A program made the position numbers and the translations under genes. DNA of 18,117 nt from assembly GCA_025924495.1 (NCBI GenBank), contig JAICIG010000132.1:1-18117 (forward strand), written 5' to 3'. Source of the stretch: Pirellulales bacterium. Its GTDB lineage: Bacteria; Planctomycetota; Planctomycetia; Pirellulales; JAICIG01. Shown here piece after piece: positions 10,260 to 17,541 of this stretch (position 1 is the stretch's first letter; the number at the start of each line of letters is the position of its first letter). Below the pieces are notes generated by a model. It was given only the letters and a program-made list of their open reading frames with translations, was not told the origin of the DNA and searched no databases.

Positions 10260-11348
10260 TTATCGCCGCACGCGGCCCGAAGCCATACCGCCCACGAGCG
10301 CGGCGACTTCATCTTTGGTGACGTAGTTGAAATCGCCTTTGATGGAGTGCTTCAAGCAACTGGCGGCGACGGCAAAGTGCAAAGCCTTGTCGGGCTCGGC
10401 AAAATCCTGCGAGTGCAAGGCATAGAGCAATCCGGCGCCAAAGGCGTCGCCCGCCCCGACGCGATCGACGATATGACGGATTTCGTAAGGCTTATATTCG
10501 CCTTGCTCATCGACCGGCGCAAACATCGCGCGGCCGGTGGGCACGTCGAATAACATCGCTCCCCAATTGTTATGATCGGCCGAGATGCTTTCGCGCAGCG
10601 TGATCGCCACCTTCGACAGATTGGGAAATCGCTCGGCGATCGCTTCTGCGACGCGATGATATGCCCTGGCGTGAATGCGGCCGTGTTCGACGGCGGTCCC
10701 TTCGGCATGGATGCCCAAGACGTCGGCGGCGTCTTCCTCGTTGGCGATCACCAGGTCGACGTGCGGCAGAATTTGCGACATGCATTCGTGCGCCAGTTGC
10801 TTGGCGCCGAAGCCCGGTCGCCAGCGCCACAACTTATTGCGGAAGTTCAGATCGCACGATACGCCAAGCCCGCGCTGCTTGGCCAGGCGAACCAGTTCGA
10901 GCGTGGCGAGAAATCCATTCTCGCTCAGCGAAGGCGTGATGCCGGTGACGTGCGTCCAAGTCGCGCCTTCCAGCGCGGCGGCGAAGTCATATTCGGCCGG
11001 CGCGGCCAGACTGATCGCACTGTGATCACGATCGTAGACCACCGTCGAGCTACGCTGGTTGGCGCCGGTCTCGACAAAGTACACCCCTAAGCGACCGGAA
11101 TCGCGGCGGAGGATCTGACTCGTATCGACCCCTAATTGCCGCATCACGGCCACGACGCTCTCGGCAATCGGATTCTTCGGCAGCGCCGTCAGATAACGGC
11201 ATGGGGCGCCGAACATTGCCAACGACGCGCAGACGTTCGCCTCGGCGCCGGCAAAGGTAATATCGACGCTGCCGGGCATTGCCTGGCGAAAGCGTAATTG
11301 CCCAGGCGGGGCGACCCGCATCATGATCTCGCCAAATGCGACAAACAT
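10260..11348 (-). CDS. kdgK: PfkB-family sugar kinase, probably 2-keto-3-deoxygluconate kinase
   Basis: The 362-residue protein is a ribokinase-fold kinase. It begins with the strand VAFGEIMMRVAPP, typical of 2-keto-3-deoxygluconate kinases, followed by the substrate-binding G-A-E-A-N-V motif (34-39). It carries DLNFRNKLW (166-174) and the PfkB signature DRVGAGDAF (295-303), where D301 is the expected catalytic base and GAGD forms the anion hole. It would phosphorylate a sugar acid such as 2-keto-3-deoxygluconate with ATP in the cytoplasm, feeding an aldolase of the Entner-Doudoroff or pectin/alginate routes. Fructose- or other sugar-specific members of the fold cannot be excluded. The stretch around 165-265 is longer than in minimal members, fitting a 362-aa planctomycete subgroup. 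GAAGGA about 9 nt upstream supports the ATG. A hairpin CGCCTG/CAGGCG (11368-11382) lies between this gene and DUF1501. Confidence 0.87.
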   Translation of the reverse strand: MFVAFGEIMMRVAPPGQLRFRQAMPGSVDITFAGAEANVCASLAMFGAPCRYLTALPKNPIAESVVAVMRQLGVDTSQILRRDSGRLGVYFVETGANQRSSTVVYDRDHSAISLAAPAEYDFAAALEGATWTHVTGITPSLSENGFLATLELVRLAKQRGLGVSCDLNFRNKLWRWRPGFGAKQLAHECMSQILPHVDLVIANEEDAADVLGIHAEGTAVEHGRIHARAYHRVAEAIAERFPNLSKVAITLRESISADHNNWGAMLFDVPTGRAMFAPVDEQGEYKPYEIRHIVDRVGAGDAFGAGLLYALHSQDFAEPDKALHFAVAASCLKHSIKGDFNYVTKDEVAALVGGMASGRVRR

Positions 11349-13691: not shown

Positions 13692-13721
13692 TTGACCGTG
13701 TTGCGTAACAATCGGTATAGT
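13692..13721 (+). promoter_or_regulatory. Sigma70-type promoter for the TsaC-like/phosphatase fusion and rpiB
   Basis: TTGACC (13692-13697) and TATAGT (13716-13721) each match consensus at five of six positions and are 18 nt apart. This is the best promoter match in the window. Transcription would begin near 13728, about 40 nt before the ATG at 13768. It lies in the 203-nt divergent region shared with the zinc-ribbon gene. Confidence 0.6.
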
Positions 13722-13767: not shown

Positions 13768-14889
13768 ATGCCTCCCGTCGTTATCGATTTGCGCAGCGCG
13801 GAAGATTCTCGCGATGTCGTGCACCGCGCCGTGCAAGCTTTGGCTGAAGGCAAAGTCGTAGCGTTCCCAACCGAAACGGTCTACGGACTGGCGGCCAGTG
13901 CGCTGAGCGAATCGGCGGTGAACCAGTTGGTCAAAAGCGGGCTGACGGGCGGCAAACAACCGCTGACCTTGGCCGTCAAAAGCGCGGACGAGGCGCTCGA
14001 TTATGTACCCAACCTCAGCCCATTGGGCGAACGGCTGGCCCGTCGCTGCTGGCCCGGGCCGGTGACCCTGGTTGTGGAAGACAGTCATCCCGACAGCCTC
14101 CTCCGGCAACTCTGTCCCGCAGTCCAGCAAGCCTTAGCCCCTGATGGCACGGTAGGGTTGCGAGTGCCGGCTCATCAGGCCATCCACGACGTGCTCCGAC
14201 TGCTCGCCGGGCCGGTGGTATTAACCGGCGCGCGCCGCGAGGGTCAGCCCGACGCGGTCACCGCCCAACAGGTCATCGAGCGTTTGAACGATGACGTGCA
14301 GTTGGTGCTCGACGACGGGCGCAGTCGGTTCGGCCAGCCTGCCAGCGTCGTGCGCGTGCACGAGCGAGACTTTGACGTCGTCGAAATCGGCGTCGTCTCT
14401 GAACAGACGCTCAAGCGATTGGCGAGCCTGATCGTGTTGCTCGTTTGCACGGGCAATACCTGCCGCAGCCCGATGGCCGAGGGCTTGTTCCGCCATCTGT
14501 TGGCGAAGAAAGTGGGTTGCCAGCCAGGCGAACTGGAAGATCGCGGAGTGGTCGTCATGTCGGCCGGCATTGCCGCCATGTTGGGCGGCCGCGCCGCCGC
14601 CGAGGCGATGCAAGTCATGTCGGAGCAGAACATCGATTTATCGACGCACGAAAGTCAGCCGCTCACCGAACAGCTCGTGCGACACGCGGATCTGATTCTG
14701 CCTATGACTCGTTCGCATCGGCAAGCAATCCTGGCGGAATGGCCGGAGGCGGCCCCACGCGTCAAACTGCTCGCTCATGACGGGACCGACGTCCCCGACC
14801 CGATCGGCGGTCCCATCGAACAGTACCAACGCTGCGTGGCGCAGATGAAGCCAGAAATCGAAAAGTGGGTGGATGAACTGAAACTCTGA
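13768..14889 (+). CDS. Fusion: Sua5/YrdC/TsaC-like domain + low-molecular-weight (arginine-type) phosphatase
   Basis: Two domains share one 373-residue polypeptide. Residues 1-215 have the Sua5/YrdC/TsaC fold, with VVAFPTETVYGLAA (30-43), GTVGLRVP (127-134) and the final strand block. This fold normally makes threonylcarbamoyl-AMP for tRNA t6A. The usual K-x-R site reads KSGLTGGKQPL (56-66) with no Arg, and the usual S-x-N site reads TGARREG (153-159), so this half may be YciO-like or inactive for t6A. Residues 221-373 are a low-molecular-weight tyrosine/arginine phosphatase. The P-loop is C-T-G-N-T-C-R-S (227-234, nucleophile C227) and the acid loop is DPIGG (D344). The Thr at 231 occupies the position that gives Bacillus YwlE its phosphoarginine specificity, where tyrosine phosphatases usually carry Ile. 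rpiB follows 46 nt downstream. In Bacillus subtilis the separate genes ywlC, ywlE and ywlF (rpiB) occur in this order. No frameshift is visible; the linker is continuous. Confidence 0.93.
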   Translation: MPPVVIDLRSAEDSRDVVHRAVQALAEGKVVAFPTETVYGLAASALSESAVNQLVKSGLTGGKQPLTLAVKSADEALDYVPNLSPLGERLARRCWPGPVTLVVEDSHPDSLLRQLCPAVQQALAPDGTVGLRVPAHQAIHDVLRLLAGPVVLTGARREGQPDAVTAQQVIERLNDDVQLVLDDGRSRFGQPASVVRVHERDFDVVEIGVVSEQTLKRLASLIVLLVCTGNTCRSPMAEGLFRHLLAKKVGCQPGELEDRGVVVMSAGIAAMLGGRAAAEAMQVMSEQNIDLSTHESQPLTEQLVRHADLILPMTRSHRQAILAEWPEAAPRVKLLAHDGTDVPDPIGGPIEQYQRCVAQMKPEIEKWVDELKL

Positions 14890-14935
14890 ACGTTTTTGCA
14901 GCGACTGCCTGAAACGTTAGAAGGATTGAAAGCTC

Positions 14936-15388
14936 ATGCGTATTGCCATCGGCAGCGACCATCGCGGTTTTGCCGTCAAACAGAAATTGATCGAACTGCT
15001 CAAGCAGCTTGGCCATGAGGCCGTCGACGTCGGCGCCAGCGGCTCAGAGAGCTGCGACTACCCCGACATCGCCAGCGTCGTCGGACAGCAAGTCAGCCAG
15101 CATGAGGTGGACCGCGGCATCTTGATTTGCGGCACGGGCATCGGCATGTCGATCGCAGCCAACAAGATTGCAGGCGTGCGCGCGGCGCCGTGTCACGATG
15201 ATCTCTCGGCGGAAATGAGCCGGCGCCATAATGATCTGAACGTGCTCTGCCTCTCGGCCGACATGCTCGGCGAAAAGCTGATCGACCGGATGGTCGAGAT
15301 TTGGCTGAACACGGAATTCGAAGGCGGTCGCCACGCGCGACGAGTCGAAAAAATCCAGCAACTGGAAAGCCAGACGCTCAAGGGTTGA
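14936..15388 (+). CDS. rpiB: Ribose-5-phosphate isomerase B
   Basis: RpiB interconverts ribose 5-phosphate and ribulose 5-phosphate in the non-oxidative pentose phosphate pathway; some family members act on allose or galactose phosphates. The 150-residue length is normal for the family. Active-site residues are all visible: SDHRG (D8, H9), the catalytic Cys in ICGTGIGMSI (C65), H98 in RRHND, and phosphate-binding R132 and R136 near the C-terminus. This set matches the characterised Escherichia coli enzyme. AGAAGGA upstream of the ATG is a fair ribosome-binding site, somewhat distant (about 10 nt). The gene lies 46 nt after the phosphatase fusion on the same strand with no terminator between, so an operon is likely. 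Paired hairpins follow the stop. Confidence 0.96.
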   Translation: MRIAIGSDHRGFAVKQKLIELLKQLGHEAVDVGASGSESCDYPDIASVVGQQVSQHEVDRGILICGTGIGMSIAANKIAGVRAAPCHDDLSAEMSRRHNDLNVLCLSADMLGEKLIDRMVEIWLNTEFEGGRHARRVEKIQQLESQTLKG

Positions 15389-15652: not shown

Positions 15653-16219
15653 ATGCAGGAATTCAACCTGAGCCGATCGGACGACGTCGATCATTTGTTG
15701 CGCAATGCCCAACTGCGCGATGAATTGGAGCCGTTCTTCGACGAGTCGATCACGCGGCTCAACATTCAGGAAATGCCGACCCCGGTTGAAAATGAATATC
15801 TGGCCAGCATGCTGGCCTGGGAACGGGCGCCCGTCGTGCCAATCTCGCAATGGTTCGATCCCGAACTGAAGCTTCCGGCGCCTGAGTCGCTTGATGATTT
15901 AGCGCTGCACGAGACGCTGTGGGATACGATCCAGAAACTGTTCGACAAGCGAATCGTGCTCGACTTCACCGACCATCTCTCCGACCGGCAGTTATATTGC
16001 CTGATCTATCGCGACATTCTGCCATCGCCCGAAAAGAAGATCGCCGCCTCAGAGCACTACTTGCACTGGGACTGCGCCGATGCCGGCGGCGATCCGGACG
16101 TCTGGCTGCGTTATTACGCATCGCCAGAAGATCGCGAGCATTGGTCGGAGTCGGGCGAACCGCTGCCCCCGGTCGAGCCGCTTCCGTATCCGCGCCGCTT
16201 GCCTCGCCGTCCGCTGTAA
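15653..16219 (+). CDS. Hypothetical soluble protein
   Basis: The 188-residue acidic protein has no signal peptide or membrane segment. It looks largely helical in its centre, around DDLALHETLWDTIQKLF and the LSDRQLYCLIYRDILP block. It has a Trp/Tyr-rich region (about 138-160) and a Pro/Arg-rich C-terminal tail (about 168-188). I recognise no known domain; proteins of this style are common as conserved hypotheticals in planctomycetes. GGAAAAGG about 10 nt before the ATG is a plausible ribosome-binding site, and an upstream promoter-like pair exists. It may be transcribed independently of rpiB. Coding is supported by strongly biased third-position GC and by the lack of competing frames. Confidence 0.78.
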   Translation: MQEFNLSRSDDVDHLLRNAQLRDELEPFFDESITRLNIQEMPTPVENEYLASMLAWERAPVVPISQWFDPELKLPAPESLDDLALHETLWDTIQKLFDKRIVLDFTDHLSDRQLYCLIYRDILPSPEKKIAASEHYLHWDCADAGGDPDVWLRYYASPEDREHWSESGEPLPPVEPLPYPRRLPRRPL

Positions 16220-16359: not shown

Positions 16360-17541
16360 CTATTCGTGGCGCAGCGCAATTTCTGTCGCTTTTGGGTCAG
16401 CCGATCGTTCCAGCAATTCGCTAAGTTGGAACTGGTAGTACCGCTGCGTGGCGGCGGGTTGGCCGTCGGCCGATGCGTTGGCGACCCAGAGCTTTGTTGA
16501 TTTCGGCTCGAATAGGACGCTGTGCAGGTTCGACTTCATCGCCACGGGACAATCCATCAGGCGAAGCGCCGTCTCTGCGGTGAACTGTCCGCGCTGCTCG
16601 CGCACTCGGCGGGCCAACTCCTTGTAGCGATCGCCGGCCGATAATAGCACGGCGTCTTCAGTCGGCTCGGGCAACCGCGGATGGAATTCGCCTGGCTTGA
16701 TCACCTGAAACTCGTTCCAGTGGGCGGCGAGCCCGACCGCCTGATTTTCATCGCCGTCAGCCACGACGTAATAGTATTCGCATGTGCGTTTGCTCTCGCG
16801 GAAGATGGCAACGGCATCGTCGAGCGTTTTCGCCTCTTCTAGCACGCGGCGCACGAGGAACGCCATGGGAGTTCCTTCCCAATGCCCCAGACCGCGGCCG
16901 CCCATTTCACCGACGGAGACATGTTCAGCGTTCATGCCCGTCACAGAGCCGACGAAGCCGGCATAGGTCACATTGATGAAGGGAATCCTTCCTTCCGGCT
17001 CTCCCACAACCAGCACCGCGTGCTCCTGCAGCTTCCAGTCGATCGAGTAATCGAGAATGCGGCCGTGATAGAGCGTACCGTCCTGCGTCGCACTGTTCAT
17101 CACCGCGAAACCGCTGCAGTGAAACAACTCGGGAATGAAGTTCGCCACGATCACGTCTTCCGCTTCGCACTCGGCGCCTGCCGCAATGCCGTTCATCTCT
17201 TCCAGAAATCGCTCCGGCATATGTCTCCGCTGGATGCCGACGATCATCGAAATCAACTGCTTGGGCTCGAGCTTCAGACCGAAGAACTCCAGCTTGGCGT
17301 CTTTAGCCTTTACCTCGAACAAGTAGTGCATGTTTTCGCGGATGTGGTCTTTCAACAGCGCCCCGTGCTGATAGCCCATCTCGTACGGCGTGCCTTTCAC
17401 ATGCAGCACGCGGTAGCCGTCGATCTCTTCCAAGAAACCGTCGCCGCAGCGGGCGATCGTTTCCGCATGGGCGGGCAGACACAGAGCCGCCGCAAGCAGC
17501 GCCAGCGTAAAACGAGAAAACCTGCAAAACGCGGCAACCAT
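16360..17541 (-). CDS. Secreted C45-family Ntn-hydrolase / acyltransferase-like protein
   Basis: The 393-residue protein has a clear signal peptide: hydrophobic core about 10-24, cleavage probably after AHA (26). The mature part matches the C45 acyl-CoA:6-aminopenicillanic-acid acyltransferase / phospholipase B-like Ntn group. An early GTPYEMGYQHGALL block (50-63) is typical. The probable N-terminal nucleophile after self-cleavage is C142 in FHCSGFAV, followed by LYHGRILDYSID and the SVTGMNAEHVSVGE strand. Such enzymes hydrolyse amide bonds in the periplasm or outside the cell; the substrate is not predictable. Two family members with different substrates cannot be told apart here. AGGAG 7 nt before the ATG supports the start. 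The S13 carboxypeptidase lies 186 nt upstream on the same strand, also an amide-bond enzyme, but the gap suggests separate promoters. Confidence 0.87.
   Translation of the reverse strand: MVAAFCRFSRFTLALLAAALCLPAHAETIARCGDGFLEEIDGYRVLHVKGTPYEMGYQHGALLKDHIRENMHYLFEVKAKDAKLEFFGLKLEPKQLISMIVGIQRRHMPERFLEEMNGIAAGAECEAEDVIVANFIPELFHCSGFAVMNSATQDGTLYHGRILDYSIDWKLQEHAVLVVGEPEGRIPFINVTYAGFVGSVTGMNAEHVSVGEMGGRGLGHWEGTPMAFLVRRVLEEAKTLDDAVAIFRESKRTCEYYYVVADGDENQAVGLAAHWNEFQVIKPGEFHPRLPEPTEDAVLLSAGDRYKELARRVREQRGQFTAETALRLMDCPVAMKSNLHSVLFEPKSTKLWVANASADGQPAATQRYYQFQLSELLERSADPKATEIALRHE

Follow-up and report, generated by a model that had tools for sequence, protein, structure and literature searches.

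The fusion gene and its two domains

The window analysed here is an 18,117-nucleotide stretch of contig JAICIG010000132.1, from a Pirellulales bacterium of the phylum Planctomycetota. At 13768–14889 on the forward strand, it carries a gene (ATG start, 373 aa) joining a TsaC-like domain to a YwlE-type low-molecular-weight (LMW) phosphatase, and the product is probably a phosphatase with an inactivated TsaC half. The TsaC-like domain (residues 24–205; 13837–14382, forward strand; PF01300 [Sua5_yciO_yrdC], E 3.4e-37) lacks the KxR/SxN signature, while the phosphatase domain (residues 223–367; 14434–14868, forward strand; PF01451 [LMWPc], E 1.6e-27) is intact. The gene rpiB, encoding a 150-aa ribose-5-phosphate isomerase B, follows 46 nt downstream (14936–15388, forward strand; PF02502 [LacAB_rpiB], E 3.4e-58) and scores above the NCBIfam TIGR01120 equivalog cut-off (176.4 versus 138.65 bits), such that tsaC, ywlE and rpiB functions adjoin on one strand. 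The initial annotation of this sequence described a 373-aa fusion of TsaC-like and YwlE-like domains with rpiB 46 nt behind it, and both the open reading frames (ORFs) and the Pfam searches confirm that description.

In Pyrococcus abyssi Sua5, K56xR58/S143xN145 form the ATP site and T33/S181/R195 the threonine site, and all seven ligand residues are stated to be required in yeast Sua5 (PMC10321239); the signature of YrdC is likewise KxR/SxN (PMC3223725). In the window, the codons at the place of KxR (codons 58–60; 13939–13947, forward strand) read G-L-T and those at the place of SxN (codons 154–156; 14227–14235, forward strand) read G-A-R. The residues at the seven ligand positions are G58, T60, G154, R156, T35, A192 and E206: six of the seven are substituted and only T35 is kept, A192 and E206 being the two substitutions in the threonine site. 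The PTETVY, WPGP and RVPAH blocks are retained. Against the NCBIfam TsaC model TIGR00057, the window protein scores 122.4 bits, 0.8 under the cut-off of 123.2, while intact fusions pass (L005, 157.9 bits; L073, 163.1 bits); as the miss is a narrow one, the score alone would not decide. From these substitutions, the TsaC half is predicted to lack threonylcarbamoyl-AMP (TC-AMP) synthesis activity.

The TsaC fold itself is recovered by Pfam, AlphaFold2 and Foldseek. The AlphaFold2 model of the fusion has a mean predicted local distance difference test score (pLDDT) of 94.9 and a predicted template modelling score of 0.89, with the lowest pLDDT (about 81–83) around residues 51–70, the former place of KxR. 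Foldseek matches the TsaC half to Sua5 (6f89, 3aje) and Thermotoga maritima TsaC2, and places the YwlE structures 4etn and 4kk4 among the best matches of the phosphatase half (35–36% identity to YwlE structures). Membership of the TsaC half in YciO was considered and rejected: YciO, though of the PF01300 family, cannot stand in for TsaC (PMC3223725, PMC12506659) and largely keeps the TsaC active-site residues (PMC12506659), whereas the window protein is a fusion and has lost the ATP-site tetrad.

Distribution of the fusion

Two sets of genomes were used: a main sample of 118 Planctomycetota genomes, taken at even spacing across the phylum to which G001 belongs, and a second set of 42 relatives of G001 (G001, G096 and G121 are common to both). 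The fusion is present in 93 of the 118 main-sample genomes, 91 recognized by hidden Markov model and two by eye; the latter (G042 and G071) are divergent fusions with K-G-G-R in place of KxR, and their signature state was also read by eye. G035 was scored as unfused although a contig end cuts its TsaC frame. In a homologue search in which 7651 of 8000 scored candidates passed E 1e-10, both domains are found in all 120 of the best homologues listed, and the named near relatives are Planctomycetota, many of them Pirellulales. In the phylum that includes the Firmicutes locus L007, 299 genomes were searched, and none of the best matches listed spans both domains. A 606-aa fusion relative, P0114, has an extra PF13808 domain.

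A frameshift, chimera or assembly artefact, or a fusion unique to one assembly, would have undercut the initial annotation. With 93 of 118 genomes and 120 of 120 listed homologues carrying the architecture, and nothing found in favour of an artefact or a one-off fusion, we regard the probability of either as practically nil.

Loss of the TsaC signature is shared by many proteins of the window's clade. Seventy-seven relatives among the 120 listed homologues have lost it, giving 78 signature-lost proteins with the window (the fragment P0028 was set aside from the motif counts). In these, the old residue is kept in 4% at positions 58, 60 and 156 and in 24% at position 154; T35 is invariant in all 78, and Arg206 has become Glu in 42. 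Decay has gone further in lineages such as G025/G106 and G072/G085, where it includes the PTETVY motif.

Signature loss and separate Sua5

Loss of the signature (scored on SxN) goes with possession of a separate TsaC/Sua5 gene. In the main sample, 20 signature-lost fusions occur with a separate copy and one without (G021), while one signature-kept fusion occurs with a separate copy (G030) and 69 without (Fisher p 6.7e-18, kinship ignored); separate copies were called from the PF01300 matches listed, by which a very divergent separate TsaC could be missed. G042 and G071 add two further kept-without cases. Two of the 69 kept-without fusions have no aligned Lys: G091 has Arg, and G105 is split over frames. 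Among the 38 fusions counted in the second set, 14 are lost with Sua5, seven are kept with Sua5, 17 are kept without (including G096, also in the main sample) and none is lost without; in G461, one of the lost cases, Asn alone has changed. The second set gave no fusion row for G462 (two contig-end pieces) or G437 (no PF01300 match), and G001 and G121 were not entered again. Among genomes with window-similar proteins, G002, G003, G004 and G006 have lost the signature and carry a separate copy, and G005 has kept it and does not. The main sample taken alone looks two-way, but with the second set the relation proves mainly one-way: lost signatures are accompanied by Sua5, and Sua5 without loss also occurs, as would fit an intermediate stage of displacement.

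The separate copies appear to have an origin of their own. A Sua5_C domain is present in all 10 separate copies tested, and their TsaC domains fall in one clade, starred in the tree, together with two Bacillota-type Sua5 rows and apart from the fused TsaC domains. On the strength of these tested copies, origin of the second TsaC by duplication of the fusion was rejected. We also considered whether the genomes scored as lacking a separate copy hide a TsaC in a long PF01300 frame. Twenty such frames of the kept-without genomes and that of G021 look HypF-like: all 21 have four CxxC motifs before the domain and no PTET/PTDT motif inside it, as is the case in HypF, and a hidden TsaC was rejected for them (long PF01300 frames outside the kept-without group were partly inspected).

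A full-length tree of 132 fusions, computed with the motif columns removed, requires the lost state to have changed 15 times or more; it leaves out G105 (TsaC over two frames) and G460 (phosphatase cut by a contig end), and carries warnings for long branches (G084, G062, G087) and odd letter make-up. Across its starred branches, seven independent pairs differ in loss, of which 6.5 on average agree with the association and none oppose it (median p 0.016, range 0.016–0.125). Taken from the Sua5 side, nine pairs differ: 6.2 agree, 2.8 do not differ in loss and none oppose (median p 0.03, range 0.016–0.0625).

Five loci of Sua5-bearing, fusion-free planctomycetes (L175, L176, L177, L178 and L179) have a CTGNTCRS phosphatase with no TsaC match in frame. 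Such phosphatases are possibly the end point of displacement.

Selection on the inactivated domain

In signature-lost relatives, purifying selection acts on the inactivated domain much as it does on the phosphatase. Of 71 TsaC positions conserved in 43 intact relatives, 54 stay at 90% or more in the 78 signature-lost proteins, T35, E36, Y39 and R132 among them; for the phosphatase, the figure is 45 of 47. The ratio of nonsynonymous to synonymous substitution rates (dN/dS, Nei-Gojobori) of the dead domain is 0.107–0.241 in 11 of the 12 pairs in which both members carry the loss; where dS exceeds 1, as in several cases, the value is rough. The phosphatase in the same pairs gives 0.09–0.26 where defined (it is undefined in G025-G106), and seven intact pairs give 0.116–0.330. 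The window compared with G001 gives 0.136 and 0.139. In the pair G046-G061, the loss may postdate the split, as the signature-keeping G027 falls beside the pair. Five positions are newly constrained in the TsaC domain of the lost group, with R185 at 100%, and this is no excess over the phosphatase domain, which also has five.

The phosphatase half and arginine phosphorylation

The window phosphatase has the catalytic Asp of LMW protein tyrosine phosphatases (LMW-PTP) as well as their P-loop, C(X)5R(S/T); the residues concerned are C227, R233, S234, D344 and P345. In LMW phosphatases, Thr at P-loop position PX5 steers the enzyme to phosphoarginine (pArg) and Ile steers it to phosphotyrosine (pTyr) (PMC8001253). 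The window P-loop, CTGNTCRS (14446–14469, forward strand), has T231 at this position, as in YwlE. The P-loop Cys and Arg-Ser are present in all 40 signature-lost fusions (26 in the first set, window included, and 14 in the second), and Thr in 38 of them (24 of 26 in the first set). Across all fusions, 79 of 97 in the first set carry Thr, as does every one of the 37 that the second set contributes anew. The divergent fusions L237 and L238 (G042 and G071) and L155 and L156 (G058 and G024) have the P-loop CxGNLNRS, and their specificity may be different.

PF00217, the family of McsB-type kinases, is found in 114 of the 118 Planctomycetota genomes. A control search matched none of 14 genomes, which is odd if Bacillus subtilis, where McsB is expected, is among them as presumed. 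Two of the planctomycete matches were checked and are McsB: L061 and L058 score 470.9 and 454.2 bits against NF002194 (cut-off 385), and L061 is also supported by solved structures, while both fall under the cut-off of the newer model NF053707. An McsA-like gene lies upstream of the L061 McsB (NF053706, 117.2 bits, under the cut-off of 210), and an ORF judged by eye to look similar lies upstream of that of L058. The initial annotation proposed looking for McsB in the same genome. PF00217 is nearly universal in the sampled phylum and does not discriminate genomes with the fusion (91 of 93) from those without (23 of 25), and its co-occurrence is for that reason uninformative about a link. What McsB supports is pArg chemistry in the phylum, not a tie to the fusion.

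From the P-loop Thr and the presence of McsB in the phylum, the substrate would be pArg rather than pTyr. The alternative is that the phosphatase half is a tyrosine phosphatase of the Wzb/Ptp type, acting in exopolysaccharide control. The superfamily is the same, some source names read protein-tyrosine phosphatase, and Thr is missing from 18 of 97 fusions. We consider this improbable for the window given its own CTGNTCRS with Thr, the Thr in every newly added second-set fusion, YwlE among the closest solved phosphatases and the near-universal PF00217.

The rpiB neighbourhood and flanking genes

The initial annotation took the trio to be conserved across distant phyla and named an rpiB adjacency no commoner than chance as a refutation. 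The trio is a real association that recurs, and the adjacency lies far above chance. The gene rpiB lies directly 3' of the fusion, on the same strand, in 56 of the 90 sample fusions with room for it (the G045 fusion, at a contig end, is left out), adjoining 42 of 69 signature-kept and 14 of 21 signature-lost fusions, versus none of the 28 separate Sua5 genes of the main sample. It also adjoins eight of 13 short unfused TsaC genes, a count that leaves out a piece of the G105 fusion; a further such gene runs off its contig. In 28 of 62 adjacent cases (the window and five non-sample genomes included), the rpiB domain starts at a gap of zero or less. In the window, the fusion gene and rpiB probably form one operon.

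A search of 61 genomes from the phylum to which G007 (Firmicutes) belongs gave rpiB loci of which the 30 with the highest scores were inspected; 29 have an LMW phosphatase beside rpiB, and 28 of these 29 have the P-loop CTGNTCRS or CSGNTCRS (L218 is unmatched). TsaC/Sua5 is also visible in 13 of the 30, within the short stretch examined, and three are YwlE-RpiB fusions. The YwlE-RpiB fusions seen in Bacillota-type genomes are L007:7001–7930, L230, L232 and L233. A TsaC-RpiB fusion of 432 aa is present in one planctomycete (G099, L165:3301–4596), and with it all three pairings of TsaC, YwlE and RpiB exist as fusions.

Some further observations concern the trio. The eight genomes with a short unfused TsaC next to rpiB are represented by L057, L158, L159, L160, L161, L163, L164 and L170; five of these genomes (G060, G073, G086, G107 and G122) have no PF01451 match and have PF00217. 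The solved LMW phosphatase 4egs carries the label RpiB in its PDB sequence file.

A single strong promoter had been proposed for the fusion gene and rpiB. A sigma-70-like candidate, TTGACC-18-TATAGT, is found at 13692–13721 on the forward strand (10 of 12 consensus bases). As this is one site where 0.5 (standard deviation 0.6) would be expected by chance, the promoter evidence is weak.

Three other genes of the window were assigned or compared. On the reverse strand, 10260–11348 encodes a sugar kinase; in NCBIfam it scores highest, at 427.6 bits (below the cut-off of 700), against a fusion of KHG/KDPG aldolase with sugar kinase, which it matches in the kinase half. Downstream of rpiB, 15653–16219 (forward strand) encodes a 188-aa protein with no Pfam or NCBIfam match; it has relatives in the fusion loci L005/L018 and L068, with 64–71% identity over the aligned part. 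A C45-family autoproteolytic acyltransferase/hydrolase is encoded at 16360–17541 on the reverse strand (NF040521, 180 bits versus a cut-off of 85).

Relation to known systems

The window protein shares the PF01300 fold with the TsaC/Sua5 (YrdC) threonylcarbamoyl-AMP synthases (COG0009) and differs from them in the missing KxR/SxN and two of three threonine-binding residues; it also has a C-terminal LMW phosphatase where Sua5 has its SUA5 domain. With the protein-arginine phosphatase YwlE/PtpB, it shares C-T-G-N-T-C-R-S, Asp-Pro at 344–345 and the LMW-PTP fold; its predicted phosphatase sits behind a TsaC-like domain and is not free-standing. In B. subtilis, the corresponding genes occur in the order ywlC-ywlE-ywlF. 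This Bacillota cluster (tsaC/sua5-ywlE-rpiB) has the same three functions in the same order as the window. Its genes are separate as a rule, with YwlE and RpiB sometimes fused, and the TsaC of L007 is an intact, Sua5-length protein, unlike that of the window.

A TsaC-like domain within a larger protein is also known from HypF, TobZ and TsaN (PMC10321239, PMC9654439), the last represented by PDB 8ide in the Foldseek comparison. In these proteins, the partners are Kae1/TsaD-type domains, and HypF and TobZ use the TsaC-like domain for catalysis.

Co-occurrence of TsaC and Sua5 is described as rare and unstable in PMC10321239. The sequences in that study were filtered on KxR/SxN, so dead fusions would be dropped from its set, and a keyword look at its main text found no planctomycete word. 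Among the open-access matches listed (subscription papers are largely uncovered), none describes a fusion of TsaC with an LMW phosphatase, planctomycete arginine phosphorylation or displacement by Sua5 in planctomycetes; one paper, PMC4395418, contains McsB, arginine phosphorylation and a planctomycete word a single time each. The fusion architecture is already visible in databases; what we think is new is the pattern of displacement, together with the selection that acts on the dead domain.

Possible role of the inactivated domain

We consider the window protein to be a YwlE-type phosphatase carrying an inactivated TsaC, whose TsaC half was displaced by Sua5 and kept as a pseudo-enzyme module (probability roughly 0.78). 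This reading draws on what was computed directly: the fusion and its spread, the loss and its tie to Sua5 in relatives, the purifying selection in relatives and the intact P-loop. Ancestrally, TsaC, YwlE and RpiB would have been encoded in one operon, and TsaC and YwlE would then have been joined in Planctomycetota. In most sampled members of the phylum, the fused TsaC is the sole TsaC found, presumably making TC-AMP for the N6-threonylcarbamoyladenosine (t6A) modification of tRNA. In lineages with Sua5, the fused domain may have come under relaxed selection for TC-AMP synthesis, and its ATP site may have decayed. The dead domain would have stayed since the phosphatase still depends on it, perhaps as a scaffold or as a docking or regulatory module. 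The initial annotation saw in the trio a functional link between TsaC and pArg removal. The association of the three functions is real, but the window fusion probably does not pair a functional TsaC with a phosphatase, given the missing signature and the separate Sua5 found in its nearest relatives.

Several results weigh against this reading. The 12 pairs carrying the loss are not all independent (four come from one four-genome group), and in one of them, G072-G085, the dead-domain dN/dS reaches 0.452. The median ratio of TsaC to phosphatase rates is 1.25 in the lost group, versus 0.83 in the intact group. Trees built on the phosphatase only show no opposing pair, but with too few pairs p is 0.06 or more. 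Seven of the 21 Sua5-bearing relatives in the second set keep the signature, which means that loss is no necessary consequence of displacement. In G021, the signature is lost with no Sua5 found, a TIGR00057 search included; the assembly of G021 is possibly incomplete, and Sua5 is present in the closely related G040. For the window's own genome, a Sua5 is expected on the strength of its nearest relatives having one. T35 and most other conserved positions remain in TsaC halves of the window type, and residual ligand binding is thus possible. Finally, Ser, Leu, Ile, Met or Arg replaces the P-loop Thr in the 18 first-set fusions that lack it, and pArg specificity may therefore not hold for all fusions.

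How the dead domain serves the phosphatase is less certain. It may be a pure scaffold, retained for folding or translation of the phosphatase and having neither partner nor ligand. The high-confidence two-domain fold, the wide variation at the dead active-site positions, the further decay in G025/G106 and G072/G085 and the lack of an excess of newly constrained sites are all in keeping with this, and we regard it as a credible account that falls somewhat short of even odds; dN/dS values down to 0.107–0.112 and 54 of 71 conserved positions kept are more than one would expect of a simple spacer. A special form of the pseudo-enzyme reading, which we hold to be possible but rather unlikely, is that the dead TsaC steers the phosphatase to TsaD/TsaB/TsaE, where it would remove McsB marks and guard TsaD from Clp degradation. 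In B. subtilis, McsB and YwlE control the stability of TsaD: McsB marks it at Arg282 and YwlE protects it from ClpCP (PMC7546277). The TsaC-YwlE-RpiB gene order of Bacillota-type genomes, the purifying selection on the dead domain and its five more constrained positions also fit docking. Those positions are, however, no more numerous than in the phosphatase, and the Sua5-bearing genomes G014, G036, G051, G066 and G079 encode phosphatases with this kind of P-loop whose frames show no TsaC match, which argues that the TsaC domain is dispensable. That the domain is still alive, with a changed chemistry or with a ligand (threonine, TC-AMP or a nucleotide) regulating the phosphatase, seems the least probable of these functional accounts. 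The invariant T35 and the recurrent Glu at position 206 would fit it, but the ATP-site positions share no replacement, and 58, 60 and 156 vary widely in the clade.

Implications

Roughly four in five of the Planctomycetota genomes sampled join the enzyme that starts t6A synthesis to a YwlE-type phosphatase, and the arginine phosphorylation papers that we found deal mainly with Gram-positive bacteria. The synthesis of t6A is close to universal, and the fusion suggests that the t6A and arginine phosphatase pathways are tied well outside Bacillota. For annotation, there is a warning: proteins of this clade named L-threonylcarbamoyladenylate synthase (such as P0099, in which the signature is absent) or Sua5/YciO/YrdC/YwlC family need not make TC-AMP.

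The repeated loss gives matched sets of natural proteins, in which one kind of phosphatase carries either a live or a dead TsaC half, and with these the contribution of the TsaC domain to the phosphatase can be addressed directly. We tentatively entertain, at clearly less than even odds, that TsaC is kept as a non-catalytic coupler of arginine dephosphorylation to t6A, either by docking to TsaD/TsaB/TsaE or by sensing a metabolite of the t6A pathway. If this is true, Planctomycetota would repeatedly show an essential enzyme domain outliving its catalysis through a second, regulatory job.

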